From Bordetella genomosp. 12 (lineage in GTDB: Bacteria > Pseudomonadota > Gammaproteobacteria > Burkholderiales > Burkholderiaceae_B), in contig NZ_NEVU01000003.1 in the NCBI RefSeq assembly GCF_002261355.1, positions 1,612,001 to 1,676,000 of the forward strand: a stretch of DNA of 64,000 nt. The letters run 5' to 3'. This document shows positions 10,246 to 35,777 of the stretch, piece by piece. Within the stretch, counting starts at the first letter, position 1. The number at the start of each line of letters is the position of its first letter. A model generated the notes under the pieces. That model did not search any database. It had not been told where the DNA came from and saw only the letters and a program-made list of their open reading frames with translations. Position numbers and translations under genes: made by a program.

Positions 10246-10253
10246 TGGCCGCA

Positions 10254-10286: not shown

Positions 10287-10313
10287 GGTGCCGGGCCGCC
10301 GCCGGCCTCAAGC

Positions 10314-10332: not shown

Positions 10333-10376
10333 TATAGAATACGGCCTGTCCCCAACATCCTTGCTCGTACGCGCAG

Positions 10377-11513
10377 ATGGCTTTTTCGCTCACGGCTGGC
10401 CCACGGCGCTGGCTGGCAGCGCTCCTGATATTGGCGGCTCTGGCCTTCTGGGCGCAGCGGGATGAAGCTCTATCCGCCGCGGCGCCCGCGGCCCAGCAAG
10501 CTGTCCCCGTCGAGGTCGTCCTGGCGCGCGCCGCCCCGCTGCGCCTGCAGCTCCATGCCATCGGCACGGTCACGCCGTTGGCGCATATCGTGTTGCGGCC
10601 CCAGGTCAGCGGCCTGCTCATGCGTCTGCACTACCGCGAAGGCCAAGTGGTGCAGGCCGGCCAGTTGCTGGCCGAAATCGATTCCCGCCCTTACCAACAT
10701 GCGCTCAACGCCGCACTGGGCAAAGCGGATCAAACCCGTGCGCGGCTGGACAATGCGCGCGCCGATCTGGCCCGCTATACAGCGCTATCGCGCCAGGATG
10801 CCGTCGCCAGAAGCCAGCTCGATGCCGCGCGCAGCGCCGTCGAGCACGATGCCGGCCAACTGGCGGCCGACCAGGCCGGGGTGGATGAGGCGCGGCGCCA
10901 ACTGGCCTTGACCCGCATCACCGCGCCGGTCAGCGGCCGCATCGGCCTGCGCCGCATCGATGCGGGCAATCATGTTCGCGCCAACGACACGCAGGGCCTG
11001 GCCACCCTGGTGCAAACCGGCGCCACCTCCGTCCTGTTCGACATCTCCGAAGCCCGGCTGCCCCTGCTGCGCGAGGCCATGGCCAATGCGGACACCCTGG
11101 CCGTCGAAGCCTGGGATGCCGACGACCGCCGCCTCGTCGCCCGGGGCACGCTGCAGGCGCTGGATAACCGTACGGGCAACGGCAGCGTGCGGCTGCGCGC
11201 CTCGTTTGCCAACGAGCAGGAACAGCTTTTCCCGTATCAGTTCGTCAACATCCGCCTGACGCTGCAACAGCAGGATCACACCCTCACCATCCCGGCGGCG
11301 GCCGTGCAGTATGGCGCGCAAGGCCCCTACGCCTATGTCATCGACAACGAAGGCAAGGCGCGCCGCAAGCCGCTGGAGATCGGCCTGAACACCGGCGGGC
11401 GGGCAGCCATCCTCGCGGGTCTGGCCGATGGCGAGCGCGTCGTCATCGAAGGCGTCGATCGCTTAAACGAAGGCCGCGCGGCAAAGATACTGGCCATCCA
11501 GGAAGACCTATGA
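10377..11513 (+). CDS. mdtA: RND efflux periplasmic adaptor (MdtA-like, HlyD family)
   Basis: A 378-residue membrane-fusion protein that links the inner-membrane pumps encoded downstream to an outer-membrane channel. An N-terminal hydrophobic segment (residues about 10-24) anchors or exports it. The HlyD lipoyl half-motif [20 protein letters not shown] lies around 76-95 and its partner [18 protein letters not shown] around 180-197, with a coiled-coil hairpin between them (many Ala, Arg, Gln); the beta-barrel and membrane-proximal domains follow. Its stop overlaps the first pump gene by four bases. No TolC-like gene is present, so the outer channel is encoded elsewhere. Family assignment is firm, the specific Mdt name is by operon similarity. 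Confidence 0.88.
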
Positions 11514-20199: not shown

Positions 20200-20988
20200 T
20201 CACGCTGACGGCGTCTTGCGCCACTGCGCCATGGAATCCAGCAGCATTTTCAAGCCGGTCTCGAAGCTGCGCTTGGCGTCCAGTTCGGTAAAGGGCCCGA
20301 GCATGTAATGCGCCGCAGCATAGTCCTGCGTGGAGGCGGCCTCCAAGCGCTTGCGGATGTATTTGGCATGCATGGCGGGCAACTGGCGGCTGACATCTGC
20401 ATAGGCGGCCGTCATGATGTATTGCGCGAGCAGGTGGTAGCCCATCGCGGTGTCCTCAGGGCTGAACCCCCCGCTGCGAAAGATCTCGGCCACGCGGTTC
20501 AGATACACCAGCCCATAGTCCGTCTGGCCAGCCTCCACCTGCTGAAACAGGCGGAACCGATTGTGCGCCATCACATAGCGCAACACCCCGCCGTACTCGA
20601 CCATGAAGTCGTAGCTCAAACGCGCATGGCGCTCGATATCCTGGCGCCACTGCCCGGTGAGCTCGACCAGCCCTTGCACCCGGCGCTTGAAGTACTCGTT
20701 CACCACCCCGGAAATCAATCCATCCCGGCTGCCGACGTAGTAGTGGATCAACGAGGACGCGACACCGAAGTCCCGTGCCAGGCCGACGATGGACAACTCC
20801 TCCAAGGGCTCGACCTTGGTGAGCTGCACCGCCCGCTCGATGATCTGGGCACGCGAAATCAGCGGCGTGTCGGCCAGGCTTTCCTGGGCGACCTTCGGCG
20901 GACGGCCGCGCCGGCGCGGCGCTTCGCTCGCGGTGGCGCGGCTTGCAGAGGCGGTGACAGGCGCGGTAGCAGCTTCTTTTTTTGCCAA
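20200..20988 (-). CDS. TetR/AcrR family repressor of the divergent aromatic operon
   Basis: A 262-residue regulator. The first 40 residues are a disordered basic tail ([11 protein letters not shown]-hook-like). The TetR helix-turn-helix follows at about 50-95 (IIERAVQL, then [27 protein letters not shown]), and the C-terminal ligand domain fills the rest. It is divergent from the alpha/beta hydrolase gene with a 79-base gap containing inverted repeats, so it most likely represses the operon and itself until an aromatic acid or its CoA ester binds. The ligand is inferred from the operon, not from the protein. Confidence 0.88.
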
Positions 20989-20999
20989 GCGTGAACCCC

Positions 21000-21052
21000 T
21001 AATTGACTGTGCATCAATTTTACCCTAGCATTAATTTACAGGGTGTCAATTA
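21000..21052. promoter_or_regulatory. Probable TetR operator in the divergent promoter
   Basis: TAATTGAC at 21000-21007 is repeated inverted as GTCAATTA at 21045-21052, and inside lies a second, shorter pair ACCCT/AGGGT. The region is AT-rich in a GC-rich genome and sits between the two divergent start codons, the expected place for an operator controlling both genes. Confidence 0.55.
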
Positions 21053-21067
21053 AAGAGCGAGGCAGAC

Positions 21068-22336
21068 TTGAGCGAGATCAAAAAAGCGGCGGTAACGGCG
21101 GGGCTACGAGGCGCGGGCTGGTCCGCGCAACGCATGGACAGGCCGTACCGCTTGCGGCCTTACCCCTTACGCACGGCCGATGGCCAGCGCACCTTGGGTT
21201 TGCTCTACAGCCAGACGGGCAAGGAGACATCCGTGGTCTGCCTGATGCATCCGCGCGAGTTCTCCGGCACGCCCTATCTGGTGCCCGATATCCTGGACGC
21301 CGGCGCAGCCTGCTGGGTGCAGGCACCCCGCGCCATCGGCAACGATTTGCGCCTGGAACACGAAGTGGCCCTGCTCGACGTGGCAGCCGCCCTGGTGCAT
21401 CTGCGCAAACTCGGCTTTACCCATATCACGCTGCAAGGCACCTCGGGTGGAGCGGGGCTTTTCGGCTTCTACGCCCAGCAAGCCCTGCGCGCGCCCGAGC
21501 GCCGGCTCAGCCATACCCCCGGCGGACGGCCCGTCAAACTGGCCGAGGCCGACATGCCCGCGCCGGATGCGTTGATTTTCGTGTCCCCCCATCCCGGCCA
21601 GGGCAAGTTGCTCATGCAGAGTCTGGACCCTTCCGTCGAGAACGAGTCGGATCCTTTCTCAGTCCTTCCCGAGCTCGACCCCTTCAGTCCGGACAACGGC
21701 TTCAGCCTGTCAACAACGTCCGCCACCTATGACGCGGACTTCGTGCGCCGCTATCGGGCCGCCCAGCAGGCACGCGTCACTCGCCTCGACACGCTGGCCC
21801 ATCAGTTGATCGCCACACGCGCCGCGGCGCGCAAAGACCTCAAGCAGCAAGGCGACGCCGCCACGGCGGACCTGCGGCGACGCGCCGCGTTCACGCCTAT
21901 CCTGACCTTGTGGCGCACTGACGCGGACCTGCGCTGCTGGGATCTGAAGCTTGACCCTTCCGACCGGGCAATAGGTTCGCTATGGGGCGCGGACCCCTTC
22001 GTCTCGAACATGGGCAGCATTGCCTTTGCGCGGCTGATCACGCCCGAATCATGGCTATCGACATGGTCGGGCCTCAGCTCCCGCGCCAGTTTCACGCAGT
22101 TTGGCGGCGAACTGAGCCTTCCGACCTTGATGCTGGAATACACCGGCGACCAGGCGGCGTTCCCCAGCGATATGGATCAGATATTTGCCTCGCTGGGCAG
22201 TACCGACAAGACCCGCGTCAAAGTCCGCGGCAATCATCACGGCATGGCGTTAAACGAAGCAGAAGAATCTGGCCAGTTGATCGCCGGGCGCCACATTCAG
22301 GACTGGTTGCGAACCCATCTGCCCACGCACGCATAG
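21068..22336 (+). CDS. Alpha/beta hydrolase heading the aromatic-acid operon
   Basis: A 422-residue alpha/beta-fold protein with the nucleophile elbow GTSGG (serine near residue 127, in LQGTSGGAGLFGFY) and a C-terminal RGNHHGM segment that can supply the catalytic histidine. The TTG at 21068 has a GAGG ribosome site six bases upstream; an ATG at 21134 is the alternative and would remove 22 residues. No signal peptide. It is the first gene transcribed away from the TetR repressor, 128 bases before the Bug gene. It could release the aromatic acid from an ester or act on a ring-cleavage product such as maleylpyruvate; the sequence does not decide. Confidence 0.8.
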   Translation: MSEIKKAAVTAGLRGAGWSAQRMDRPYRLRPYPLRTADGQRTLGLLYSQTGKETSVVCLMHPREFSGTPYLVPDILDAGAACWVQAPRAIGNDLRLEHEVALLDVAAALVHLRKLGFTHITLQGTSGGAGLFGFYAQQALRAPERRLSHTPGGRPVKLAEADMPAPDALIFVSPHPGQGKLLMQSLDPSVENESDPFSVLPELDPFSPDNGFSLSTTSATYDADFVRRYRAAQQARVTRLDTLAHQLIATRAAARKDLKQQGDAATADLRRRAAFTPILTLWRTDADLRCWDLKLDPSDRAIGSLWGADPFVSNMGSIAFARLITPESWLSTWSGLSSRASFTQFGGELSLPTLMLEYTGDQAAFPSDMDQIFASLGSTDKTRVKVRGNHHGMALNEAEESGQLIAGRHIQDWLRTHLPTHA

Positions 22337-22464
22337 CTTCCCAGTCCGCAGCAACGCCCTTGCCCGGGACGACCTCTCTGGCCCGGGTGGCGGAAAACCA
22401 CAAGAAGATGAGCTGACCCCGTCGCGACGAACGTGGCGCTCGCCCGAATTCAGGAGACATACCC

Positions 22465-23436
22465 ATGCTGTCAATCAGATCAACGCTGGCGGCTCTGGCT
22501 GCCGCGGCTTTGCTCGTCCCGGGCGCGCACGCCGCGGCGGGCTTCCCCGACAAACCGATTCGTTTGTTCGTGCCCTCCCCTGCCGGCAGTGCGCCGGATG
22601 TGATGGCCCGCGTCATCGGTGACGCCCTGGGCAGACGCATGAAGCAAACCATCATCGTCGAGAACAAACCGGGCGCCGGCGGCATCGTCATGATGAATGC
22701 CTTAAAAGCAGCGCCCGCCGACGGCTATACCCTGGGATTCGCCCAGGCTGCCGTGGCGGCGGTCACCCCACTGACGTACAAAAGCGCCAACTACTCGATG
22801 ACGCGGGACGCCGACATCGTCGGCACCGTGGGCATCACCCCCATGGTGTTCACCGCCAGCAAGCAATTTGCTCCGAATACCTTGGCTCAAGCGCTGGACC
22901 AGGCGCGCGCCCACCCCGAAGGCGTCACGATCGGCAGCCCGACGCGCAGCTCCATCCCGGACCTGGCCTCCGGGCTGCTCGCGGCCAAAGCCGGGGTCAA
23001 GGTCAGGCAAATCCCCTTCTCCGGCTCGCCTCAGGGCGTGCAGGCTGTCGTCTCCGGGCAGATCGATATGTATGCCGATGCCGTGGCCCCGCTGACCGGC
23101 CTGATCAAAGGCGGCAAACTCAAAGCCTTGGCGGTCGCCGCGGACGCTGAACTGCCCGGCCTGGAAGGCATCCCGCTGGCCAAGGACACCGTCCCGGGGA
23201 TGGTCATCTATGGCTGGTTCACCCTCCATGCGCCGAAAGGGACGCCGGACGGCATTCTCAAGCAGCTGAATGCCCAACTCAACCAGGTGCTCGCAGAGCC
23301 GGAAGTGATCGCGCAATTCCGCAACCTGGGCACCTATCCCAAAACATCCACCCTTGAAGAAGCGGCCGTTTTCCTGCGCGAACAGCAGGCGCTTTTGGGT
23401 GACGTCATCAAGCAGATGAACATTACGGCGGAATGA
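22465..23436 (+). CDS. Bug-family periplasmic binding protein (TctC type)
   Basis: A 323-residue protein with a Sec signal peptide (cleavage near AHAAA, residue 23) and the Bug hallmarks: FPDKPIRLFVPSPAGSAPD at the start of the mature protein and VENKPGAGG near residue 72. Bug proteins bind carboxylates, aromatic acids or amino acids in the periplasm. Neither TctA nor TctB is encoded here, so it must use membrane partners from elsewhere or act as a sensor. The stop overlaps the ligase start by four bases, tying it to catabolism of the imported acid. Confidence 0.9.
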   Translation: MLSIRSTLAALAAAALLVPGAHAAAGFPDKPIRLFVPSPAGSAPDVMARVIGDALGRRMKQTIIVENKPGAGGIVMMNALKAAPADGYTLGFAQAAVAAVTPLTYKSANYSMTRDADIVGTVGITPMVFTASKQFAPNTLAQALDQARAHPEGVTIGSPTRSSIPDLASGLLAAKAGVKVRQIPFSGSPQGVQAVVSGQIDMYADAVAPLTGLIKGGKLKALAVAADAELPGLEGIPLAKDTVPGMVIYGWFTLHAPKGTPDGILKQLNAQLNQVLAEPEVIAQFRNLGTYPKTSTLEEAAVFLREQQALLGDVIKQMNITAE

Positions 23437-25136
23437 GCGAGGCAGCGATCGTGAAGGCAGAAGTTCAACACCACATTCCCGGCGTGGTCTACCCCTCGCC
23501 ACACACCGTGCGCCGCTACGTCGAGGCCGGTGCATTGACCGACGAAACGCTGGTGGAAGGATTCCAACAATCCGTCGCCCGTTTCCCCGACCATATCGCG
23601 CTGCAATGCACGGAGCAGTCGTACAGCTATCGTCAGCTCGACGACATCACAGACCGCCTCGGCGGCGCGCTACTCAAAATGGGCGTGCGGCCCTTGGACA
23701 GAGCGGTGCTGCAACTGGGCAACAGCCCGGAGCTGGTCATCGTCTTCCTGGCCTGCCTGAAAGCCGGAATCATCCCGATCTGCACGCTTGCGGCGCACCG
23801 CGAACACGAGATCGGCTTTCTCGCCGAGCTCGGGGAAGCCCGGCTGCATATCGTCCAGGGAGACGACCCCAAGTTCGATGACGTCGAATTTGCGCGGCAG
23901 ATGCAAGCCCGGATCCCCGGCATCGAGTGGATCATTCAAGCCCGCGGCGCCACGCGTGACGGCGCCGTCGGCCTGCATGCGCTGGCCAACGGCATCGAGC
24001 CGGCCGAAGCGCGTCAGTGGTTGCAACAGGTCTGCCGCGACCCCTTACAGGTGGCCGTCTTTCAGCTCTCTGGCGGCACCACCGGCGCGCCCAAGATCAT
24101 CCCGCGTTTCCATAGCGAATACCTATACAACATGCGGTCCGTCGCCAAGGTCAATGGCTACACCAGCGAGGATGCGCTGTTCATGCCGCTGCCCATGGTC
24201 CACAACCTGAACATGGGTTGCTGCTTCGGGCCCTTCCTCATGACGGGCGGCACAGTCGTTCTCGCGCCGAGCATGAGCACGGCGGACGTGCTGCAGACCC
24301 TGCAAACGTATCAACCGACCTGGCTGTCGGTGGGTGCCTTGCTCGCCCGCATTCAGCCCGCGCTGGACTCGGGGCAGTTGCAACTGCGGCGCCTGCGCGG
24401 CGTCATCGCGCCCAATGGCGGTCCACGGCTGCGGCAGATCTTCAATGCGCCGGTGCGGCACATTTTCGGCATGACCGAAGGCGTCATCATGCTGACGCGG
24501 GAAGAAGACCCGCAGATCATCCAGGACTACACCGTCGGCCGGCCGGTCTCGGAGCACGACCGGGTAAAGCTGCTGGTGCCGGGCACCGATCAGGAGATCA
24601 CCGAAGACGAGGTGGACGGCGAGTGCGCATTCTCCGGCCCGTACACCATCCATGGCTATTACAAGGCGGAGGACCGAAACCGTGAGCAGTTCACGGCGGA
24701 CGGCTTCTACCGGTCAGGAGACTTGATGATGGCCCGCACCATCGATGGCGTGCGCTACTTCCAGTTTCGCGGCCGCACCAAGGATGTCGTGAGCCGTGGC
24801 GGGGAGAAGATCAATTGCGAAGAAGTGGAGATCCTCATCCGCCGCCATGCAGCCGTCACCAATGTGCAGATCTGTGCCATGCCCGATCCCGTGCTGGGAG
24901 AAAGGGCCTGCGCTTTCATTCAAGCCAAGCCGGGCCAGACCGCGCCCGACGTCGCCGCCCTCGGTGCCTTTCTGAAAGAAGAAGGGCTGGCCAAATTCAA
25001 GTGGCCAGAGCGGGTGGAGAGCGTCGACGAGTTCCCCATGACCAAAACGGGCAAGCTCAGCAAGGTCATCCTGCGCCAATTGATCGTCGACAAGCTGGCC
25101 GCGGAAGCGGCAGCCAAGAAGGGAGAAACAGAATGA
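23433..25136 (+). CDS. Aryl-acid AMP ligase / aryl-CoA synthetase (EntE/SdgA-like)
   Basis: A 567-residue adenylate-forming enzyme. The phosphate loop LSGGTTGAPK lies near residue 211, the GMTEG motif near 345, the YRSGDL motif near 427 and the C-terminal catalytic lysine in PMTKTGKLSK near 540. The segment LPAHR-like LAAHREHEIGF and FQQSVARFPDHIAL resemble 2,3-dihydroxybenzoate- and salicylate-AMP ligases (EntE, DhbE, SdgA). It should activate an aromatic acid, probably salicylate or a relative, to acyl-AMP and then CoA ester. It overlaps genes on both sides by ATGA, showing tight coupling in the operon. Confidence 0.85.
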   Translation: MSEAAIVKAEVQHHIPGVVYPSPHTVRRYVEAGALTDETLVEGFQQSVARFPDHIALQCTEQSYSYRQLDDITDRLGGALLKMGVRPLDRAVLQLGNSPELVIVFLACLKAGIIPICTLAAHREHEIGFLAELGEARLHIVQGDDPKFDDVEFARQMQARIPGIEWIIQARGATRDGAVGLHALANGIEPAEARQWLQQVCRDPLQVAVFQLSGGTTGAPKIIPRFHSEYLYNMRSVAKVNGYTSEDALFMPLPMVHNLNMGCCFGPFLMTGGTVVLAPSMSTADVLQTLQTYQPTWLSVGALLARIQPALDSGQLQLRRLRGVIAPNGGPRLRQIFNAPVRHIFGMTEGVIMLTREEDPQIIQDYTVGRPVSEHDRVKLLVPGTDQEITEDEVDGECAFSGPYTIHGYYKAEDRNREQFTADGFYRSGDLMMARTIDGVRYFQFRGRTKDVVSRGGEKINCEEVEILIRRHAAVTNVQICAMPDPVLGERACAFIQAKPGQTAPDVAALGAFLKEEGLAKFKWPERVESVDEFPMTKTGKLSKVILRQLIVDKLAAEAAAKKGETE

Positions 25137-25720
25137 GCAAGCAACAATCGTTACCGCTGCAAGGCGTCCATCACACCGCACGCCCGACGTGGAAACTGGC
25201 TGAGACCGTGCATTTCTATCGCGATCTGCTCGGCCTGCCTTTGGTCCATGCGATCTCCGCGCGCGGCTGGGGGCCGGACAATCACGCCGATTTTCTGCAT
25301 TTTTTCTTTGACAGCGGCAATCACAGCACCATCGCGTTCTTCTACTACATCGGGGCCGATCAACCGGACTTCGCTCAGCCCAAGCCGGACTACCGCTACA
25401 AAGCCACCCACACCGCCTGGCGCGTGGACACACGCGAACAACTGCTCGCCTGCCGCGCCAAGGTCGAGGCGGCAGGAATCCAACTGAACTACCAGATCCG
25501 CCACGAAGTCATCGAGTCGATCTACTTCTTCGATCCCAACGGCTACTCCATCGAGATCACCTGGCAAGCGCGCCCGTTCACCCAACTGGACATCGACGAC
25601 GCCGCACGCACCATCAACGCCGCAGTGGAACTGTCGCAGCAACCCGGCGCGCTCACCGGCATCGATGCGGTCTGGCAGCGCAAGGCGCAGTTGCTCGCGC
25701 AAGAACTGGAGAACGTGTGA
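25133..25720 (+). CDS. VOC-fold protein, candidate ring-cleavage dioxygenase
   Basis: A 195-residue protein of the glyoxalase/bleomycin/type I extradiol dioxygenase (VOC) superfamily. A 2-His-1-carboxylate triad is visible: His13 or 14 in GVHHTARPT, His93 in ATHTAWRV and Glu141 in GYSIEIT, matching the iron ligands of extradiol dioxygenases. The DPNGYSIEI strand is standard. It lies between the ligase and the flavin hydroxylase in an operon that has no cupin gentisate dioxygenase, so a ring-opening role is plausible. An isomerase, epimerase or CoA-ester lyase activity remains possible. Confidence 0.75.
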   Translation: MSKQQSLPLQGVHHTARPTWKLAETVHFYRDLLGLPLVHAISARGWGPDNHADFLHFFFDSGNHSTIAFFYYIGADQPDFAQPKPDYRYKATHTAWRVDTREQLLACRAKVEAAGIQLNYQIRHEVIESIYFFDPNGYSIEITWQARPFTQLDIDDAARTINAAVELSQQPGALTGIDAVWQRKAQLLAQELENV

Positions 25721-25977
25721 TGCCCACGATTTTCGTACTCGACGTCGAAGAGTTTTCCCCCTTGGTGCAGCATGCGCGCCAGCGCGAAGGGCTGCGCGTC
25801 CTGGGCCCGACCAAGGGCTATTGGCGCATCGAGGCGCAGGGCGAGCTGCGATTCTCGCGGCAGGACCTCGGCTTCAAGCCCGCGGTCTGGAACGGTGCGC
25901 TCACGGGCGGGCTGATCGGCGAAGTCGTTCAATTCGACAAGGACACGCTGCGCATCGTCGACCGGAGCTGCCCATGA
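25720..25977 (+). CDS. Unknown 85-residue protein inside the aromatic operon
   Basis: A small protein, about 85 residues, whose ATG overlaps the VOC stop (TGATG) and whose stop overlaps the flavoprotein start (ATGA), so it is clearly translated as part of the operon. The N-terminal MPTIFVLDVEEFSPL suggests a beta strand then helix; the middle has alternating hydrophobic and charged residues (GLRVLGPTKGYWRIEAQG), and the end DTLRIVDRSC includes a single cysteine. No signal peptide or membrane segment. I do not recognise the family. Position suggests a subunit or accessory factor of the VOC protein or the hydroxylase. Confidence 0.75.
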   Translation: MPTIFVLDVEEFSPLVQHARQREGLRVLGPTKGYWRIEAQGELRFSRQDLGFKPAVWNGALTGGLIGEVVQFDKDTLRIVDRSCP

Positions 25978-27146
25978 AGATCGCAGTCATAGGCGGAGGC
26001 CCGGCCGGCCTGTACTTTGCCATGCTGGTGCGCAAGCGGCAGCCGGCCTGGTCCGTCACGGTCGTCGAACAGAACCCGCCGGATGCCACCTTTGGTTTTG
26101 GCGTCGTGATGGCAAGCTCGGGCCGCAATAGCCTGCACGCGGCCGACGCGGAGAGCCACGACGCGCTCATTGCGAAAATGGCCTTCACCGACCGGCAAGT
26201 CATCACCGTCAAGGAAACCCCGCTTGTCATCGAACGTCCCGACAAAGGCGGCGCCATCCGCCGCATCGATCTGCTGGAGGTATTGCAAGCCTCGGCCTTA
26301 CAGGCAGGCGTCGAGATCCGCAGCGGCGTACGCCTGGCGTCGCTGGCCGATCTGGAGGACCTGGGCCTGGGCGATGCCGATCTGATCGTGGGTGCCGATG
26401 GGGTGAACTCCATGGTGCGCCATGAAGATGAGGCCGGCTTTGGCACGCATCGCTCGCACCTGACCAACCATTTCGCATGGTTTGGGGTCGGCAAAGCCTT
26501 CCCCAGCCCGGCGCTCGTCTTTCGGCAGTACGAGGGCGGCTCCTTTGTGGCCCACTACTACCCCTATGCCGCTGACCGCAGCACCTTCGTCGCCGAGTGC
26601 GACGACGCCACATGGCACCGCTTCGGGATGGAAGAACTCAGCCCCGACCACAGAGCGGCCCTGTTCGAAAAAGTCTTCGCCGCCGAACTGGACGGCTTCC
26701 CGCTCTTGTCGAACAACTCGGCGTGGCGGCAGTTTCCCGTCATCAGGAACGCACGCTGGCATAGCGGCAACAAGGTGCTGATCGGCGACGCGCAGACCAG
26801 CGCGCATTTCTCCATCGGCTCCGGAACCCGCATCGCCATGGAGGATGCCATCGCCCTGGCCCAAGCCGTAGGCGAGGCCGACGGCACGATCAGGCAGGCC
26901 TTGCACGCCTTCGAGCAAAAGCGCCGACCGGAGAAAGAAAAGCTGATCTCCGCCTCTGAACGCTCCTATCTCTGGTACGAAGAGGTCGGCAACTGGCTGC
27001 GTCAGTACACGCCGCATCAATTCGTCTACCACTTCATGACCCGCACCGGACGCGTGAATGACCAGCGCCTGGCTGCCGCCTATCCCGCCCTTTATGCCGC
27101 GCTGCAGACCTCGGGCGCCACCGCCCGCCATGGGGCGCAGCCATGA
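25974..27146 (+). CDS. FAD-dependent aromatic hydroxylase, salicyloyl-CoA 5-hydroxylase-like
   Basis: A 390-residue class A flavoprotein monooxygenase. The FAD-binding GGGPAG motif is at residues 7-12, the DG motif LIVGADGVNSMVR near 135-147 and the second FAD motif GDAQTSAHFSIGSGTRIAMEDA region near 265-286. The GDA..AHFSIGSGT form and the N-terminal FGFGVV segment are characteristic of the salicylyl-CoA 5-hydroxylase and anthraniloyl-CoA monooxygenase branch, not of the p-hydroxybenzoate branch. It should hydroxylate the aryl-CoA made by the ligase, for example salicyloyl-CoA to gentisyl-CoA. It overlaps both neighbours by ATGA. Confidence 0.83.
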   Translation: MKIAVIGGGPAGLYFAMLVRKRQPAWSVTVVEQNPPDATFGFGVVMASSGRNSLHAADAESHDALIAKMAFTDRQVITVKETPLVIERPDKGGAIRRIDLLEVLQASALQAGVEIRSGVRLASLADLEDLGLGDADLIVGADGVNSMVRHEDEAGFGTHRSHLTNHFAWFGVGKAFPSPALVFRQYEGGSFVAHYYPYAADRSTFVAECDDATWHRFGMEELSPDHRAALFEKVFAAELDGFPLLSNNSAWRQFPVIRNARWHSGNKVLIGDAQTSAHFSIGSGTRIAMEDAIALAQAVGEADGTIRQALHAFEQKRRPEKEKLISASERSYLWYEEVGNWLRQYTPHQFVYHFMTRTGRVNDQRLAAAYPALYAALQTSGATARHGAQP

Positions 27147-27598
27147 CCCTCATCAGCTATGAAAGCGTGATCAGCGCCACGCCCTTTGTCGTTCGGCGGC
27201 GCGTTCGCTGGGGAGAGTGCGACCCCGCGGGCGTGGTCTACACCGGCAAATTCGTCGACTACATGCTCGCGGCCGTCAACCTCTTCTACGCGAACCTGGC
27301 GCCTGTCGAGTTCAGGCAACTGCTCGGCGAGCTTGGTATCGGCATGCCATGCCGGGGCCTGGATATGGACTTTCGCGGCGCGCTCTGGCCCGAAGACGAG
27401 TTTGAGATCAGGGTCGGCGTCCAGGAGATACGCCGCTCGACCTTTGACATGCGCGTGCACGGCTATCAGGAGGGCGGCCGCGACATCTTCCTCGGGCGAT
27501 TCAGCGCGATCTGCATTCCGGGCGACGGCCAACGCAAAAGCGTCGCCATTCCCGCAGCGCTGCGTTCCTTGCTTGAAAGCCATACGTACGAGACATGA
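27143..27598 (+). CDS. 4HBT-type acyl-CoA thioesterase
   Basis: A 151-residue hotdog-fold thioesterase. The motif RVRWGECDPAGVVYTGKF at about residues 16-34 holds the catalytic aspartate of the 4-hydroxybenzoyl-CoA thioesterase family, and the central helix and strands have normal spacing. In this operon it would hydrolyse the hydroxylated aryl-CoA (for example gentisyl-CoA) to the free acid, ready for ring cleavage. Start and stop overlap the flanking genes by four bases each. Confidence 0.87.
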   Translation: MTLISYESVISATPFVVRRRVRWGECDPAGVVYTGKFVDYMLAAVNLFYANLAPVEFRQLLGELGIGMPCRGLDMDFRGALWPEDEFEIRVGVQEIRRSTFDMRVHGYQEGGRDIFLGRFSAICIPGDGQRKSVAIPAALRSLLESHTYET

Positions 27599-28350
27599 AC
27601 ATGACCAAGACTTATCGCATCGGCCAGATTGTGCCCAGCTCCAACACCACGATGGAGACCGAAATCCCGCAGATACTGCGCCGCCGCGAACAGGACCATC
27701 CCGAACGCTTCACGTTTCACTCCGCGCGCATGCGCATGCACAAAGTGACGCCCGAGGAACTGCAGGCCATGAACGCCCAAGGCGTGCGTTGCGCAGCGGA
27801 ACTGGCCGACGCAAGAGTCGATGTCATGAGCACCGCATGTCTGGTCGCGATCATGGCGCAGGGGCCGGGCTACCATCGCCAGGTCGAACAAGACTTCGCC
27901 GCCGTGGTCGCCGCCAATGCCGCGCAATCCCGCGTGATGACATCGGCTGGCGCCCTCATACACGGGCTGCGCAAACTCGGCGCCAAGAAAATCTCCCTCA
28001 TGGCCCCCTATATGAAGGGCCTGACCGCAAAGGTCATCGACTACATCGAGGCCGAAGGCATAGAGGTTGTGGATAGTTTGAGCTTCGAAATTCCCGATAA
28101 CCTGGAAGTCGGCCGTCGCGACCCGCAACAGCTCTTGCAAGACGTCAAAAAGCTGAATACCGCCAACGCCGATGTGGTGGTGCTGTCCGCCTGCGTGCAA
28201 ATGCCTTCACTGCCGGCCATCCAGCAAGCGCAGAACAGCCTCGGCCTGCCCGTCACCTCCACCGCCATCTGCACCGCGCGGAACATGCTCGATCTGCTGG
28301 CGCTGGATGCCCGCATCCCTGGCTATGGGCGGCTGCTGGAGATTCAATAG
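27595..28350 (+). CDS. Maleate cis-trans isomerase (Asp/Glu racemase superfamily)
   Basis: A 251-residue enzyme with the beginning YRIGQIVPSSNTTMETEIP, which closely resembles NicE and other maleate isomerases. The two catalytic cysteines are present in STACLVAI (Cys about 82) and LSACVQM (about 200). It converts maleate to fumarate in the cytoplasm, joining ring-cleavage products to the citrate cycle. Its presence shows that the upstream pathway ends in maleate, as expected from gentisate through maleylpyruvate, or from the pyridine route, for which no amidase genes are seen here. An ATG six bases downstream is an alternative start. Last gene of the operon. Confidence 0.9.
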   Translation: MNMTKTYRIGQIVPSSNTTMETEIPQILRRREQDHPERFTFHSARMRMHKVTPEELQAMNAQGVRCAAELADARVDVMSTACLVAIMAQGPGYHRQVEQDFAAVVAANAAQSRVMTSAGALIHGLRKLGAKKISLMAPYMKGLTAKVIDYIEAEGIEVVDSLSFEIPDNLEVGRRDPQQLLQDVKKLNTANADVVVLSACVQMPSLPAIQQAQNSLGLPVTSTAICTARNMLDLLALDARIPGYGRLLEIQ

Positions 28351-29161: not shown

Positions 29162-30763
29162 ATGAAGGAATACGTAGACTACATAATCGTTGGCAGTGGC
29201 CCGGCGGGTTCTGTCATCGCCAAGAGACTGAGCGAACGTACTCATCGAACCATCTGTGTGCTTGAAGCCGGGTGCGAGGACAGGAATTTCTTCATTCGCG
29301 TGCCTGCGGGTTTCGTGAAAACACTCTATGCCGGCAAGATCACCTGGAACTATCAAGCCGAGCCCTCCCTCGCCACCCACAGCCGCAAAATCGCGATGCC
29401 GCAAGGACGCGTGGTTGGCGGTTCAAGCTCGGTCAACGGCCTAGTCTATTCGCGCGGTCAACGCGAGGACTTTGACGATTGGCGGGAAATGGGAAATCCC
29501 GGCTGGGGCTATTCGGACGTTCTGCCCTATTTCAAGCGCTCCGAGCACCGAATCGGCCCTTGCGATCCCGCGTATCGCGGCCTGTCTGGCGAGCTGCCTG
29601 TCACCAATCCGGACTGGACATCGCCTCTGTGCGAGGCCTTCATCAAAGGCTGTTCGGAATTCGGCATCCCCGAGAATCCCGACTACAACGGGGAACATCA
29701 GCTCGGCGCCGGTTACTTCCAGCGTTATATCTACCAAAGCAAGCGCGTGAGCTGTTCGGATGCCTTCCTCAGACCAGCCATGAAAACGGGGCGAGTCCAG
29801 CTAAAGACGGATGCCCAAGTGTGCGAAATCCTGTTCGAAGGCAAGCGAGCTGTTGGCGTTAAGTACCTGCAAGGGGGCGCCACACACACGCTCTACGCCA
29901 ACCATGAGGTCATCCTGAGCGCGGGTGCGGTGAATTCTCCGAAAATTCTGCAGCTCTCGGGCATCGGCCCGGCAGAACTTCTGGCCCAGCACGCCATACC
30001 GGTGAGGCATGCGCTGCCGGGGGTCGGAGAGAACTTCCGCGACCACTACACCGTACGCTCCATTTCGCGGGCGAAATCCGTCACCACGCTGAATGAGCTG
30101 GCAAGGGGCTGGCGCCTGGGCAAGGAGATACTCAACTGGTTTCTGCGTAAACCCAGCATTCTCAGCCTGAGCCCGTCGATGGTTCACGTCTTCTGGAAAA
30201 CCCGTTACAGCCCGCATCGGGGCGATATCCAGGTGCTCTTTACGCCAGCGAGCTACAAGCCCGGCAGCAATTATGTCCTGGATGACTTGCCCGGCATGAG
30301 CACCGGTGCCCGCCAGCAACGTCCTGAAAGCAGTGGCTACGTCCGCGTTCAGTCGAAAGACCCCCTTGTCGCGCCGCTCATCCAACCGAATTTTCTCGCG
30401 CACGAACTGGATCAACGCACCCTCGTCGAAGCCTTGAAACTGGCCCGGCAGCTCATGTTGTCCTCGGCCATGGCGCCGTTCCTGGCCAGTGAACTGCAAC
30501 CCGGAACGGATGTGTCGCGCGATGACGAATGGCTGGACTATGCCAGGCAAAAGGGAACCACGGGCTATCACATGGTTGGCACCTGCAAGATGGGAGCGCG
30601 TGACGACCTGATGGCCGTAGTGGACGCGAATCTTTGTGTCCATGGCCTGCAGAACCTGCGTATCGCAGATGCGTCTGTCATGCCCCAAGTCCCCTCCGCC
30701 AACACTCTCGCAGCCAGTCTGATGATAGGCGAGAAGGCAGCCGACATGGTGCTTGCCGCGTAA
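29162..30763 (+). CDS. GMC family FAD-dependent oxidoreductase (choline/alcohol dehydrogenase-like)
   Basis: A 533-residue glucose-methanol-choline oxidoreductase. The FAD-binding YIIVGSGPAGSVIAKRLSE motif is at residues 6-24, the GMC signature GRVVGGSSSVNGLVYSRG at about 82-99, and the C-terminal catalytic pair appears as GYHMVGTCKMG (His) and PSANTLAASLMIGEKAA (Asn). It oxidises a primary alcohol to an aldehyde. The aldehyde dehydrogenase follows after 35 bases, so the two probably carry out consecutive steps. No signal peptide. Substrate unknown; the downstream lactonase-like enzyme and MFS carrier hint at a sugar-like or cyclic alcohol. Confidence 0.9.
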   Translation: MKEYVDYIIVGSGPAGSVIAKRLSERTHRTICVLEAGCEDRNFFIRVPAGFVKTLYAGKITWNYQAEPSLATHSRKIAMPQGRVVGGSSSVNGLVYSRGQREDFDDWREMGNPGWGYSDVLPYFKRSEHRIGPCDPAYRGLSGELPVTNPDWTSPLCEAFIKGCSEFGIPENPDYNGEHQLGAGYFQRYIYQSKRVSCSDAFLRPAMKTGRVQLKTDAQVCEILFEGKRAVGVKYLQGGATHTLYANHEVILSAGAVNSPKILQLSGIGPAELLAQHAIPVRHALPGVGENFRDHYTVRSISRAKSVTTLNELARGWRLGKEILNWFLRKPSILSLSPSMVHVFWKTRYSPHRGDIQVLFTPASYKPGSNYVLDDLPGMSTGARQQRPESSGYVRVQSKDPLVAPLIQPNFLAHELDQRTLVEALKLARQLMLSSAMAPFLASELQPGTDVSRDDEWLDYARQKGTTGYHMVGTCKMGARDDLMAVVDANLCVHGLQNLRIADASVMPQVPSANTLAASLMIGEKAADMVLAA

Positions 30764-30798
30764 GCACGCCACCACAAATTCATATCAAGGAGCTATAT

Positions 30799-32256
30799 AT
30801 GACTACGGTCGACCTCAATGTTCTTAAATCCGTTTCGCTGCAAAGCCTGATTGGCGGCCAACGCGTAGGCGGCGCAACCTCGTTTACCGTCTACGACCGT
30901 TACTCCGGCGAAGCGATTGCGCAGGTCGACCAAACTTCGCAAGCGCTCATCAAGCAGGCCGTCGTGGTTGCCCGCCAGAATCTCGACAAGATCCCCGACG
31001 GCTATGAGCGCTCGCGCATTCTGCGCAAAGCAGCGGACATTATCCAGTCTCGCAAGCAGGTGTTCATCGACATAATGGCTCTGGAGGCAGGTTTCACCGC
31101 CGCGGAGTCATTCAACGAAATCGCTCGCGGTCTGGACACGCTGGAAATCGCGGCAGAGGAAGCCAAACGAATCTGCGGCGAGATGATTCCGATGGACAGC
31201 AATCCTGGCCAAAAAGACCGCTTGGCGTTTACCTTGCGCACCCCTGTCGGCATCGTCTGCGCGATCACACCGTTTAACGCCCCCTTCAACGCGCTGCTGC
31301 ACAAAGTCGCTCCCGCCATCGCAGCCGGCAATGCCGTGATCATCAAGCCATCGGGGTACACGCCCTTGACGGCCAGTCTGATCTGCGACGTCCTGATCGA
31401 AGCGGGTTGGCCAGCCGAAGTGCTATCCCTCATTCAGGGCGAAGGCGCCGAGGCGGGTGAATGGCTGCTGGAAGAACAGGACATCAATTTCTATACGTTT
31501 ACTGGCAGCACACGCGTAGGCCGCATCATTCAACAGAAAGCCGGGGCGCGGCGCACGCAATTGGAACTAGGAAGCATCGCCTGCACGGTGCTGTGCGCCG
31601 ACGCCGACCTCGACCTCGCGTTACCTCGCATCCTTCGCGCCACGTTCCGCAAGGCGGGCCAGGTATGCACGTCGATACAACGGCTCTACGTCGCCCGGTC
31701 TCGTATGGAGGAAGTGAGTGCTCGGCTCGAGAAAGCCACGAGTGCGCTGCGAAGCGGTGATCCCAAACAAGCTGAGGTCGATTTCGGCCCCATGATCGCC
31801 GAGCGGGAGGCGATGCGCGCCGAGTCCTGGATCAAGGAAGCCGTTGCGATGGGCGCCCAAGTCCTCACCGGGGGCAGCCGCAACAAATCCGTACTCGAAC
31901 CGACCATTGTGACCAACGTCCGAAGTGGCATGAAGGTCATGGACGAGGAGATCTTCGCCCCTGTGGTCACGCTGCTGCCCTTTGACAATATCTCGGAGGT
32001 GATCGAAAGCATTAATGCCACGCCTTACGGGTTGGCCGCGGGCGTTTTCACCAATGATGTCAACACGGCATTTTTCATGGCGCGCCGGCTGCACGTCGGC
32101 GGCCTGCACGTCAATGAGACCTCCAGCTCGCGCAATGATGGCATGCCTTATGGCGGGGTCAAGGACAGCGGCTATGGCTTCGAGGGCCCCAAATACCTGA
32201 TCCGAGACATGACGGAGGAAAAGGTCGTGACGATTTCCCTACGCGACCCGGTTTAA
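30799..32256 (+). CDS. NAD(P)-dependent aldehyde dehydrogenase
   Basis: A 485-residue aldehyde dehydrogenase. The ATG at 30799 has AAGGAG thirteen bases upstream; longer frames upstream overlap the GMC gene and lack conservation. Motifs: ITPFNAPFN near residue 155, the general-base loop ELGSIACTVL near 255 (Glu), and the nucleophile GQVCTSIQRLYV near 290 (Cys). It resembles the glyceraldehyde-3-phosphate/lactaldehyde/succinate-semialdehyde branch. It should take the product of the GMC enzyme to a carboxylic acid in the cytoplasm. Confidence 0.9.
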   Translation: MTTVDLNVLKSVSLQSLIGGQRVGGATSFTVYDRYSGEAIAQVDQTSQALIKQAVVVARQNLDKIPDGYERSRILRKAADIIQSRKQVFIDIMALEAGFTAAESFNEIARGLDTLEIAAEEAKRICGEMIPMDSNPGQKDRLAFTLRTPVGIVCAITPFNAPFNALLHKVAPAIAAGNAVIIKPSGYTPLTASLICDVLIEAGWPAEVLSLIQGEGAEAGEWLLEEQDINFYTFTGSTRVGRIIQQKAGARRTQLELGSIACTVLCADADLDLALPRILRATFRKAGQVCTSIQRLYVARSRMEEVSARLEKATSALRSGDPKQAEVDFGPMIAEREAMRAESWIKEAVAMGAQVLTGGSRNKSVLEPTIVTNVRSGMKVMDEEIFAPVVTLLPFDNISEVIESINATPYGLAAGVFTNDVNTAFFMARRLHVGGLHVNETSSSRNDGMPYGGVKDSGYGFEGPKYLIRDMTEEKVVTISLRDPV

Positions 32257-32406
32257 GCAGGCGCTAGAGGGGCGCTCGCCGCCCGCCGCACAGCATGGCG
32301 TCAATGCTGTACGGCAAAGCGCCTCTCGCAGACACACGATGAGAACAACTTATAAGCGGCAGGTCGGCCAAGCTGAACCTGAACGCAGACATCCCAGGAG
32401 GGGTCC

Positions 32407-33654
32407 GTGAAAAACAAACGTTATCTGGTCTATGCAGGCCTTTTTTTGGTGGTTGCATTCAACTATGTCGACCGCGTGGCACTATCCATCGGCGGCCCCG
32501 CCATCGCCAAGGAGTTCGGTCTGGGTCCCATCGAAATGGGATACCTCTTTTCGTCCTACGTTTGGACCTATCTCTTACTCCTGATCCCTTGCGGCCTGCT
32601 GACTGATAAGTACGGCGCGAAAATCGTCAATACCGTCGGCGTCACCATCTGGTCCGGAGCCACCATGCTTAGCGGCCTCGCCGTTGGCTTCTGGTCTCTG
32701 ATCTGGTCTCGTTTGCTGATGGGTGCGGCGGAAGGCTCCACTTTCCCCGCGGGTGCCAAGGCCTTGCGAGACTGGAGTCCGAAGAAAGAGTTCGGCCTGG
32801 CGTCGACCATGCTCAACAGCGGCTGCTACGCCGGTCCGGCATTTGGCACCCTTCTGCTCGGCTGGGTCATCTCGGTATCCAGCTGGAGATGGGCCTTCTT
32901 TGTGGCTGCGGCTCTCGGGCTCGTCTGGCTGGTGGCTTGGATGATCTGGTATCGACGTCCGGAAGAAGCCTCCTGGCTCGAGCCGGAAGAGCTCGCTCTG
33001 ATCGTCAAAGAAAGAGACAATGCGGCCGGTAAGCCGGCCTCGCGTGGCGGACTCGCCAAGCTTCTGCGCTCGAGGTCCATGCTCGCCATTGCCTTTGTTC
33101 ACGGATGCGCCGCCTACACGCAGTATGTCTTCTTGACTTGGCTGCCGAGCCATCTTGCGGTTTCCAAAAATCTTTCCATTGTTAAGTCGGGCGTATTCAC
33201 TGCTCTGCCCTACTTTATTGCAGCCGTGGCCTCTTGGGGCCTGGCACACTGGAGCGACCGTTGGCTCGAAAAGCGCGGCGGAGCCTCCACGGGAGCACGA
33301 CGCAACATCATCGTCGTCTCGATGCTTAGCGCAGCCATCGTGCTTTTCACACCGCTTACCGACAACGTCGCGGTGATTCTCGTCCTGATAACGATCTCGC
33401 TGACCGGATTGGCCACGGGCATGTCCTTGAACATCGCCCTGACAGCCGACCTGTTGAAGAGCCCGGAGAATGCCGGGAAAGCGATCTCGGTTCAGCTCAC
33501 TGGCGGCAATATCTTTGGCACACTAGGCCCCATCGCAACGGGATACATCATCTCTGCGACCGGTCGCTACGATATGGCTTTCATGGTGAGCGGGGCGCTG
33601 CTGACGGTGGGCGCAGTGGTCGCCATGGTCTTTACTCGATCGGATATAGGGTGA
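32407..33654 (+). CDS. MFS transporter, anion:cation symporter (ACS) type
   Basis: A 415-residue carrier with twelve hydrophobic segments. The start is GTG with a strong AGGAGGGG ribosome site. The signature NYVDRVALSIGGPAIAKEFGLGPIEMGYLFSSY in the first two helices is typical for ACS family carriers such as the glucarate, galactonate and phthalate symporters. It probably imports an organic acid that enters the operon's pathway. The stop overlaps the amidohydrolase start. Confidence 0.9.
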   Translation: MKNKRYLVYAGLFLVVAFNYVDRVALSIGGPAIAKEFGLGPIEMGYLFSSYVWTYLLLLIPCGLLTDKYGAKIVNTVGVTIWSGATMLSGLAVGFWSLIWSRLLMGAAEGSTFPAGAKALRDWSPKKEFGLASTMLNSGCYAGPAFGTLLLGWVISVSSWRWAFFVAAALGLVWLVAWMIWYRRPEEASWLEPEELALIVKERDNAAGKPASRGGLAKLLRSRSMLAIAFVHGCAAYTQYVFLTWLPSHLAVSKNLSIVKSGVFTALPYFIAAVASWGLAHWSDRWLEKRGGASTGARRNIIVVSMLSAAIVLFTPLTDNVAVILVLITISLTGLATGMSLNIALTADLLKSPENAGKAISVQLTGGNIFGTLGPIATGYIISATGRYDMAFMVSGALLTVGAVVAMVFTRSDIG

Positions 33655-34700
33655 AGGCCATGGACGCCACGTCACGCCACATCCCGATCCGAGAATCCTG
33701 GCTAGCGACGACCATCGAGGCTGCGATCGACCCCGAGACGCCGATCGTCGATGCCCATCATCACCTGTGGCATAAGCAGGATGCGCCATCGTATCTCTTG
33801 CCACAGATGCAGGCGGATATCGCAAGCAGTGGCCACAATATTGTGGCGACCGTCGCGGTAGAGGCCCGCCATAACTATCGCGATGATCTAGGGCCCGCGC
33901 TGGCTCCATTGGGCGAAACCGAACAGGCCGTCGGCGTTGGGACGACCTGCCGCGATACCGATCCGGACGGGCCCGCAATCGCGGCAGCCATCGTCGGTTA
34001 CGTAGATCTGAGTCTCGGTGCCGAGGCCGGGGCTCTGCTGGATCGCCACATCGAAGTCGCGCAAGGCCGCTTTCGAGGTGTGCGCAACACGTCGGCCTGG
34101 CATGCCGATCCGGCGGCGCGCGGCTCGGTCATTCTGCCCCCGCCAGGGCTGCTGTACGACAGAAAATTCCGCCAAGGCATCAAAGAGCTCACTCGCCGGA
34201 ATCTTGTTTTCGAAGCCTGGATGTATCACACCCAATTGGGTGAGCTCGTAGACCTCGCACGCGACAACCCTGAAACCAGGATCGTTCTCAATCATCAGGG
34301 CGGACCAATCGGCTTCGGTCCGTATGCCGGATGCCGCGCGGAGGTTTTCAGAGACTGGACGCATTTCATGAGGCGTCTGGCGGAGTACCCCAACATCCGG
34401 GTCAAGCTCGGTGGAATGGGGATGCTGATGGCCGGTTTTCGCTTTCATGAAAATGCCCGCGCGCCGACGTCAGCGGAACTGGCAGCAGCCTGGTCGCCAT
34501 ATATGACGAGCTGCATTGAGCTATTCGGCGCACAGCGTTGCATGTTTGAAAGCAACTTCCCGGTCGATAAAGGCACCGCATCCTATGGCGTGGTTTGGAA
34601 CGCCTTCAAACGCATCATCCATGCCTATTCGGCGGATGAGAAGCGGGATCTTCTTGGACGGAATGCCCGCGACCTCTACTCGCTGACCATCGATATTTGA
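33651..34700 (+). CDS. Amidohydrolase family lactonase-like protein (LigI/PDC hydrolase type)
   Basis: A 349-residue TIM-barrel hydrolase of amidohydrolase family 2. The metal-site motif VDAHHHLWHK is at about residues 32-41, His in VLNHQGGP near 205, and the terminal Asp in MFESNFPVDKGT near 300. This combination is found in 2-pyrone-4,6-dicarboxylate hydrolase and sugar lactonases. It would open a lactone formed after oxidation by the GMC enzyme and aldehyde dehydrogenase. The GTG at 33651 overlaps the MFS stop; an ATG nine bases further on is equally possible. Confidence 0.85.
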   Translation: MKAMDATSRHIPIRESWLATTIEAAIDPETPIVDAHHHLWHKQDAPSYLLPQMQADIASSGHNIVATVAVEARHNYRDDLGPALAPLGETEQAVGVGTTCRDTDPDGPAIAAAIVGYVDLSLGAEAGALLDRHIEVAQGRFRGVRNTSAWHADPAARGSVILPPPGLLYDRKFRQGIKELTRRNLVFEAWMYHTQLGELVDLARDNPETRIVLNHQGGPIGFGPYAGCRAEVFRDWTHFMRRLAEYPNIRVKLGGMGMLMAGFRFHENARAPTSAELAAAWSPYMTSCIELFGAQRCMFESNFPVDKGTASYGVVWNAFKRIIHAYSADEKRDLLGRNARDLYSLTIDI

Positions 34701-34769
34701 TCAAAGCCTCGCTCGAAGGCTGGATAAAAACGCCTCTATTCGAGGCATCCACATACTCTGGAGACAATC

Positions 34770-35777
34770 ATGTACCCAAGGATAACCCTGGCGCGTGCGC
34801 ACACGCGCTTGCTGCAAATTTGCGCGGCTGCATTGACACTAGCCGCGACGACTCCTGCCCTCGCGGCAGGTTACCCCGAACGCCCCATCACCCTGGTTGT
34901 CCCTTATACCGCCGGTGGCGCGACAGACGTCCTCGCGCGCACGGTCGCCGACAGTCTGTCCAAGGAACTCAAACAGACCATCGTCGTTGAAAATCATCCC
35001 GGAGCCGGCGGTACGATCGGTCAAACCCGCGTCGCGCGCGGCGGCACCGACGGCTACACCTTGTTGTTTGGCAATGTCGGCACCCTGGCCGCCAACGCAT
35101 CCGTCTACAAAGACCTGCCCTATGACATCATCAGGGACTTCACCCCTTTGGGTTCGGTTGGCGACGCGCCACAAGTCCTCTCGGTCAGGGCTGATTTTCC
35201 TGCTTCTAACTTTGATGAATTCGCGGCTTACACCAAAGCACATGCCGCAAAAATGAATGCTGGCGACGCCGGCATCGGTTCGGGTGCGTTTCTGGGGAGC
35301 GTGCTGTTAAACGCAAAACTGGGCGTCGACGTTCCGAAAGTGCATTATCGCGGCGCGGCGCAAGCCACCTCGGATGTCATGGCAGGACAGATCGACTACA
35401 CCATCGAAAGCAGCAGCACGGCGGTAGGATCTATCTCTGGCGGCAAGATCAAGGGGCTATTGGTGCTGGCTAAGGAGCGCGCCGGCGTACTGCCTGGAGT
35501 GCCCGCGGCAAGCGAGACCTCCTACCCTGATCTGAACTATGTCATCTGGAATATGATGCTGGTGAAAAAGGGCGTTCCGGCAGATGTCGTTGAAAAACTC
35601 AATGCTGCCATTAATGCGAGTCTCGAATCCCCGGCTCTTCTGGAGCGCTACAAACAAATGGGCCTAACCATCCCGGCTGCCGACCATCGGAGTCTGGAGG
35701 GTTCGAAAAAACTCCTGTCGGATGAGGTCGCCAACTGGCGCAAACTCCTTAGCGAAGCCGGCGTCAAACCCGAGTAA
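34770..35777 (+). CDS. Bug-family periplasmic binding protein (TctC type)
   Basis: A 335-residue protein with a signal peptide ending near ALAAG (residue 32), then YPERPITLVVPYTAGGATD and VENHPGAGGTIG, the Bug signatures. A GGAGAC ribosome site precedes the ATG. Like the other Bug proteins of the window it lacks TctA/TctB neighbours. Its place after the MFS and amidohydrolase genes suggests it binds the operon's substrate or acts as periplasmic sensor. The following LysR gene is convergent with it. Confidence 0.9.
   Translation: MYPRITLARAHTRLLQICAAALTLAATTPALAAGYPERPITLVVPYTAGGATDVLARTVADSLSKELKQTIVVENHPGAGGTIGQTRVARGGTDGYTLLFGNVGTLAANASVYKDLPYDIIRDFTPLGSVGDAPQVLSVRADFPASNFDEFAAYTKAHAAKMNAGDAGIGSGAFLGSVLLNAKLGVDVPKVHYRGAAQATSDVMAGQIDYTIESSSTAVGSISGGKIKGLLVLAKERAGVLPGVPAASETSYPDLNYVIWNMMLVKKGVPADVVEKLNAAINASLESPALLERYKQMGLTIPAADHRSLEGSKKLLSDEVANWRKLLSEAGVKPE

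Follow-up and report, generated by a model that had tools for sequence, protein, structure and literature searches.

A conserved operon of Bordetella genomosp. 12 as a candidate coenzyme A-dependent route from a salicylate-like acid to maleate, with a two-part VOC-family protein as the putative ring opener

The window analyzed here is a stretch of 64,000 nucleotides from Bordetella genomosp. 12 (assembly GCF_002261355.1, contig NZ_NEVU01000003.1, positions 1,612,001 to 1,676,000), and coordinates below count from its first letter unless another contig or locus is named. Its positions 21068-28350 hold eight plus-strand genes, which code, in order, for a serine hydrolase of alpha/beta type (ABH), a Bug/TctC periplasmic binding protein, an aryl-acid AMP/coenzyme A (CoA) ligase (LIG), a VOC-family protein (VOC), a small protein termed P86, a flavin hydroxylase (FMO), a thioesterase (THI), and a maleate cis-trans isomerase (MAI). 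The operon is real: its genes have the coordinates and order given in the initial annotation, and six of the seven junctions overlap by 4 bp, the remaining one being the first, a gap of 128 bp between ABH and Bug. We consider that it probably specifies a peripheral-to-central route by which an ortho-hydroxylated aromatic acid, most likely salicylate, would be converted via its CoA ester to maleate and fumarate. Family scans of the operon proteins recover TctC/Bug, AMP-binding, Glyoxalase/VOC, FAD_binding_3, 4HBT_2, and Amdase domains; ABH and P86 have no Pfam or NCBIfam match at E 0.001.

In the inferred route, whose every reaction is a prediction, as are its substrate, its control, and the placing of thioester hydrolysis before ring cleavage, the Bug protein would serve in uptake of the acid, and the ligase would convert salicylate through its acyl-AMP to salicylyl-CoA. 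The flavin hydroxylase would hydroxylate this CoA ester para to the hydroxyl group, and the thioesterase would release free gentisate from the resulting gentisyl-CoA. VOC and P86, acting as an Fe(II)-type dioxygenase of extradiol fold, would then open the gentisate ring between C1 and C2 to give maleylpyruvate, a C-C bond of which would be hydrolyzed by ABH to yield maleate and pyruvate. Finally, MAI would turn maleate into fumarate, with a TetR-family regulator controlling expression of the operon. What is least certain is the form of the acid at ring opening, free or still esterified to CoA.

The same set of genes recurs widely in other genomes. We searched the VOC protein against 268 genomes of the family, of which 52 match at E 1e-20; the 41 of these with a VOC relative of about 56% identity or more are referred to as cluster-bearing genomes. 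From the family we collected 36 neighborhoods, each surrounding a VOC relative with 53 to 91% identity; some genomes contributed two. On GTDB contigs 391 VOC relatives were confirmed, the best 80 of which are the 80 named loci, and eight of the 20 plasmid matches listed were inspected, six of them being of the P86-bearing type. These sets overlap in organisms and their counts are not independent. ABH, LIG, and P86 are each present in 36/36 family neighborhoods and FMO in 35/36, the sole miss (L050) lying close to a contig end, and because of this constancy the gene set must be more than a chance association. The other genes are less regular there (THI 23/36, TetR 11/36, MAI 7/36). Among the 80 named loci, P86 is found in 79, LIG in 76, FMO and ABH in 74 each, THI in 57, TetR in 53, MAI in 42, and an FAA hydrolase in two; the five-gene core of ABH, LIG, VOC, P86, and FMO is entire in 68. 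Two main layouts are seen, namely ABH-LIG-VOC-P86-FMO-THI-MAI, which is the window type, and ABH-VOC-P86-LIG-THI-FMO-Bug-MAI. MAI is nearby in all six P86-bearing plasmid loci, and the plasmid loci of Streptomyces, Tsukamurella, and Rhodococcus have the arrangement MAI-VOC-P86 along with an ABH homologue. At the level of sequence, then, the gene set, its protein families, its conserved order and residues, and the unity of VOC and P86 are well documented. A contig of Variovorax sp. JS1663 carries two inverted copies of an extended cluster (L139 and L140) with two ligases, two hydrolases, and two FMOs, the VOC genes being about 19 kb apart. A Streptomyces chartreusis plasmid (L078, 3110-12907) has the genes MAI-VOC-P86-ABH-ligase beside a set for a cupin, an FAH protein, and a mycothiol maleylpyruvate isomerase, with two transposase genes between them.

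VOC (25133..25720, plus strand; PF00903, 53.1 bits) and P86 (25717..25977, plus strand; 86 residues from a GTG start or 85 from the next ATG) are separate genes overlapping by 4 bp in the window, and their arrangement elsewhere argues that the two make up one enzyme, of which P86 is the C-terminal domain split off as a separate protein. Of 86 loci, i.e., the 80 named ones and six on plasmids, 52 encode VOC and P86 in a single unbroken reading frame and 30 as two adjacent genes, with four unjudged; the homologues in Cupriavidus metallidurans CH34 (L075) are fused. A P86 profile made from 36 sequences, namely the window and the same loci that were searched, matches 121/122 cluster loci, including 79/80 named loci, with the miss (L153) cut by a contig end. 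It matches 0/39 VOC paralogue loci, which comprise two plasmid loci and 37 loci drawn from the 50 lower-scoring VOC matches listed for the family genomes. The small protein had been noticed initially with a length of 85 residues, but its identity as a part of the VOC enzyme had been missed.

The proposal that VOC opens the ring gains from its conserved residues. His14, His39, His56, His93, His124, Tyr131, and Glu141 are invariant in all 23 sequences chosen for alignment, and four of these (His93, His124, Tyr131, and Glu141) align with His214, His246, Tyr255, and Glu265 of XylE of pWW0. With His14 as the first metal ligand, which is assigned by position only and is not aligned to XylE, VOC would have the 2-His-1-Glu metal site of type I extradiol enzymes, and, given the roles of their counterparts in XylE, His124 and Tyr131 retain the second-sphere His/Tyr pair of catechol 2,3-dioxygenase. 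The nearest solved relative by sequence is 9u42, entered in the PDB as "Glyoxalase" (E 4.1e-15), and a VOC profile run against the PDB places 9u42 first, followed by another protein of the glyoxalase family, by FosB enzymes, and by 2zi8, a ring-cleaving enzyme. Residues and profile together favor Fe(II) oxygen chemistry, without proving it. The candidate substrate would be gentisate as such, although its CoA ester or a substituted analogue may take that role. Of the residues initially named, His14, His93, and Glu141 are conserved; a general replacement of cupin dioxygenases by VOC is not supported, since cupin homologues are common in the cluster-bearing genomes (see below).

ABH (21068..22336, plus strand; GTSGG motif) is most likely a C-C hydrolase acting after ring opening, a view that draws on analogy with the enzymes found in equivalent positions. 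Its Ser126, Asp361, and His390 are invariant in 46/46 aligned sequences and, going by their motifs, would form the catalytic triad. Its label as an alpha/beta hydrolase rests on these invariant residues and on the annotation of relatives: besides lacking a Pfam match, it has no convincing PDB relative by sequence (three matches, E 0.4-0.6), the homologues of L080 and L134 likewise have no Pfam family, and a paralogue hydrolase (L071) matches Abhydrolase_6 just under the cut-off. In the 39 paralogue loci, many of which come from close relatives, VOC is accompanied by an ABH relative in 21 and by an FAA hydrolase in 14 others, never by both, and four have neither; FMO is near VOC in 27. Most of the FAA matches are 25-28% identical to the query, and all three that were scanned by Pfam were confirmed. 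The exchange is also seen within ligase-linked clusters, where the position of ABH in L134 is taken in the related L135 by an FAA hydrolase (PF01557, 230 bits), the two loci being 73% identical in VOC and 62% in LIG. FAA-type enzymes hydrolyze the diketo acids from gentisate and homogentisate cleavage, and because they swap places with ABH, the latter may be expected to hydrolyze a ring-fission diketo acid, in line with the initial suggestion that it releases maleate. The FAA superfamily also contains hydratases and decarboxylases. One paralogue locus (L068, 8383-11580) has the order FMO-VOC-fumarylacetoacetase, with the last scoring 461 bits against the curated fumarylacetoacetase model (cut-off 375.3) and the FMO before it being closest to 3-hydroxybenzoate 6-monooxygenase, under its cut-off. 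With no cupin match in the locus, this set could represent a separate pathway of homogentisate- or gentisate-like cleavage by a VOC-type enzyme, and similar FMO-VOC-FAA sets are seen in other paralogue loci.

The end of the proposed route is marked by MAI (27595..28350, plus strand), whose homology to the maleate isomerase 4fq7 covers residues 4-248 (phmmer E 1e-74) and retains both catalytic Cys motifs, ACLVA and SACVQMPS. This full-length homology places it with the NicE-type maleate cis-trans isomerases; the genome has no second match at E 1e-50 and no second Amdase-family match at E 0.001. Family, motifs, and uniqueness in the genome together support maleate as the product, as first proposed. 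In all 42 of the named loci that have it, MAI lies on the same strand as VOC and within 6 kb of it. A maleate isomerase gene is present anywhere in the genome in 41/41 cluster-bearing genomes versus 119/268 overall (Fisher 3.5e-17, kinship uncorrected). However, this co-occurrence counts for little by itself, because a homologue of cupin gentisate dioxygenase (E 1e-30) is enriched too, being present in 39/41 cluster-bearing genomes versus 123/268 (Fisher 4.6e-13, kinship likewise uncorrected). The better evidence is physical linkage in the wider set, where MAI accompanies VOC in 42/80 named loci and a single Streptomyces cupin query matches 0/80. The two cluster-bearing genomes without a cupin homologue are G097 and the present one (G000), for which the original statement that no cupin dioxygenase is present holds at E 1e-30; its best score against TIGR02272 is 42.3 bits versus a cut-off of 442.1. 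The gentisate dioxygenase model gives two weak partial matches, of 42 and 25 bits, within a 405-codon frame of this genome (L072, C3 about 815313-816065).

At the front of the route, the pocket of LIG (23433..25136, plus strand; TIGR02275, 370.5 bits, under the cut-off of 723.55) matches the salicylate type. In DhbE numbering, Asn235 is retained and positions 240 and 337 are occupied by Cys and Ile, the same combination as in PchD, versus Asn/Cys/Leu in CahJ and Asn/Ser/Val in both DhbE and a second 2,3-dihydroxybenzoate ligase. These positions were counted by hand, with position 240 of PchD taken by its distance from Asn235 owing to a one-residue alignment gap, and we assume the rule that residues 240 and 337 separate salicylate from 2,3-dihydroxybenzoate ligases. 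Among 116 ligases near VOC genes, His234 and Asn235 are invariant, and the residue at 240 is mostly Cys (76), otherwise Tyr (34), Leu (five), or Asn (one). FMO (25974..27146, plus strand) scores 308.7 bits with NF006101, the model for salicylyl-CoA 5-hydroxylase (cut-off 1078), over profile positions 1-370 of 768 and lacks the second half; it scores 204.2 bits with the VioD model, also under cut-off, and VioD structures are its best PDB matches by sequence. For each of the three FMOs scanned, namely those of the window, L137, and L079, the best-scoring model is that of the salicylyl-CoA 5-hydroxylase/oxidoreductase, with no score reaching the cut-off. Ligase pocket and best hydroxylase model together are consistent with salicylate-type activation followed by a hydroxylase of an acyl-CoA family, as originally envisaged, and THI (27143..27598, plus strand; PF13279, 49.4 bits) is a 4HBT hot-dog thioesterase. 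In L146 an NADH:flavin oxidoreductase (10175-11530; Oxidored_FMN, 182.8 bits) follows the thioesterase, and no flavin hydroxylase was found in the cluster. Weak matches to Rieske proteins, at most 32% identical, occur in L147 and L043. Extradiol cleavage of 2,3-dihydroxybenzoate was rejected as the function of the operon: the ligase pocket is not of that kind, and this cleavage does not lead to maleate. A nicotinate-type route was set aside as well, no amidase recurring beside the core by eye, with no amidase search run.

Several observations weigh against a route from salicylate through free gentisate. The scores of the ligase and the hydroxylase are far under the NCBIfam equivalog cut-offs, and Tyr at position 240 in the other main cluster type (34/116) means that this second type may use another acid. 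THI was not found in 23/80 named loci and FMO in 6/80, some of these being on short contigs, and MAI, present in only 7/36 family neighborhoods, was not found in 38/80 named loci. With a cupin homologue elsewhere in 39/41 cluster-bearing genomes, a second gentisate route would look redundant. As for VOC itself, proteins of similar sequence include FosA/FosB-type enzymes, and the acid/base His199 of XylE has no conserved counterpart at its place as judged by eye, His39 and His56 being invariant instead. One way to accommodate the variation in the ligases would be the same chemistry on another natural substrate, such as a substituted salicylate, anthranilate, or a 3-hydroxypicolinate-like acid, all of which are activated by the same ligase superfamily. 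The pocket differs among the cluster types (Cys/Ile, Tyr/Leu, Cys/Asn, and others), and benzoate/anthranilate-dioxygenase-like Rieske alpha/beta pairs lie close to the cluster in four loci (L137 and L141 with an FMO, L145 and L160 without). Yet the pocket residues in the window are those of the salicylate ligase PchD, and the amidase that an amino or N-heterocyclic substrate would need on the way to maleate does not recur by annotation or by eye, with no search for it having been run; we regard this option as possible but rather unlikely.

The redundancy with cupin enzymes would disappear if VOC-P86 cleaved gentisyl-CoA itself, with P86 and the longer VOC tail adapting the fold to a thioester and the thioesterase acting last or being dispensable. 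P86 accompanies VOC in 79/80 cluster loci versus 0/39 paralogue loci, just one of which (L081) has a ligase match, at 25% identity and about 5.5 kb away. The loci in which no thioesterase was found, such as L112 and L115 of Pigmentiphaga, would fit, as would L129, L146, and L156, where a ligase and a thioesterase are present and no flavin hydroxylase was found, an arrangement that would serve no purpose if the enzyme cleaved the free acid alone. However, absence of THI or FMO was judged from the neighborhood, unlinked thioesterases and hydroxylases not having been looked for; in L137, L141, and L149 no ligase was found up to about 9 kb from VOC-P86; and a C1-C2 cut of gentisyl-CoA would yield an unusual 2-oxoacyl thioester. 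We think cleavage of the CoA ester possible but unlikely. Much the same holds for its broadest form, in which VOC-P86 would represent a novel class among the dioxygenases that cleave para-diol rings. Its substrate would be a CoA thioester, either gentisyl-CoA or an analogue, to which the enzyme would be adapted by P86, a domain fused to it in many lineages; together with maleate isomerase and the C-C hydrolase of serine type, it would make up a gentisate-like central pathway, linked to CoA, in Proteobacteria and Actinobacteria. That VOC is no dioxygenase at all, e.g., a glyoxalase-, FosA-, or epimerase-like enzyme, and that a cupin elsewhere cleaves gentisate appears improbable. The closest curated families are VOC proteins of other function, cupin homologues are as frequent as stated, and the Streptomyces L078 has its cupin set close by; against this, the present genome has no cupin match at E 1e-30, the Streptomyces cupin query found nothing in the named loci, VOC keeps the second-sphere His/Tyr pair of XylE, and an FAA hydrolase or ABH near VOC in 35/39 paralogue loci fits ring cleavage.

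The regulator gene, which encodes a TetR-family protein (TetR_C_1, PF02909, 32.6 bits; 20200..20988, minus strand), is divergent from the operon, and the 79 bp between it and ABH contain two AATT-based palindromes. The first is AATTGA-N7-TCAATT at 21000..21021, as read by eye in an alignment of nine regions (the window and L083-L090, all of the divergent layout), and the second, at 21031..21053, is the inverted repeat TTAATTTACA / TGTCAATTAA, whose arms are 90% complementary with a spacing of 3 nucleotides. In all nine regions the TTG and AA columns of the first and both AATT blocks of the second are invariant. These palindromes may be operators of the TetR protein, and promoter elements could also explain their conservation. 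Of the TetR control first proposed, the divergent regulator beside conserved palindromes is borne out, and the control as such stays a plausible reading of that layout. The Bug protein (22465..23436, plus strand; PF03401, 152.7 bits) is the candidate for uptake of the acid. Downstream, positions 29162-35777 hold a second co-directional set comprising a GMC oxidoreductase, an aldehyde dehydrogenase, an Amidohydro_2 protein, as well as a second Bug protein and an MFS-like transporter, both recognized by eye. Tested by its GMC and aldehyde dehydrogenase genes (29162-32256), this set is not conserved with the operon, and their participation in the pathway was rejected, with GMC matches in 5/122 loci and aldehyde dehydrogenase matches in 11/122 (E 1e-8); a Rhodococcus cluster (L080) adjoins a similar pair of just 28% and 26% identity.

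The front half of the proposed route resembles a known salicylyl-CoA pathway and its end a known maleate branch. The salicylyl-CoA/gentisate pathway of Streptomyces sp. WA46 is reportedly encoded by SdgABCD, with SdgD, a cupin gentisate dioxygenase, as the ring opener. Shared with it are the activation of an aryl acid through AMP and CoA, 5-hydroxylation of the CoA ester by a flavoprotein, and gentisate-type ring opening. The sdg genes are named in PMC6460240 and PMC13215587. Here, by contrast, the ring-opening candidate is VOC-P86, followed by ABH and maleate isomerase. HbzF of Pseudomonas alcaligenes, from the maleate branch of the gentisate pathway, is said to be of the FAH kind. In this branch maleylpyruvate is hydrolyzed directly to maleate and pyruvate (PMC5658364). 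The operon would share that reaction, using instead a serine hydrolase of alpha/beta type and having a maleate isomerase downstream. Nicotinate and picolinate catabolism ends in a maleate isomerase of the NicE type, related via 4fq7 to the one described here, whereas the operon would start from a ligase-activated substrate and no maleamate amidase is seen in its core. Type I extradiol dioxygenases such as XylE and 2zi8, which we take to be HsaC, share the VOC family and the equivalents of XylE His214, His246, Tyr255, and Glu265; the operon protein differs in having a single VOC repeat, no conserved His199, the extra P86 domain, and a context of para-diol cleavage. The 9u42 protein has His, Tyr, and Glu at the same positions but is shorter and has no P86 part, and no paper naming this PDB code was found in the literature searched.

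In that literature, mostly without subscription journals, no description was found of the gene set, the VOC-P86 step, the serine-type C-C hydrolase, or their combination, in agreement with the early impression that the combined set may be undescribed. To our knowledge, the VOC family has not been credited with gentisate-type ring opening. If the proposal is correct, many soil and plant-associated bacteria would open gentisate-type rings with an enzyme of this family, and several hundred proteins now labeled as VOC family or hypothetical (391 relatives) would become one named enzyme. It would also account for maleate isomerase genes outside nicotinate pathways and would provide a route to fumarate from salicylate, a defense signal of plants.

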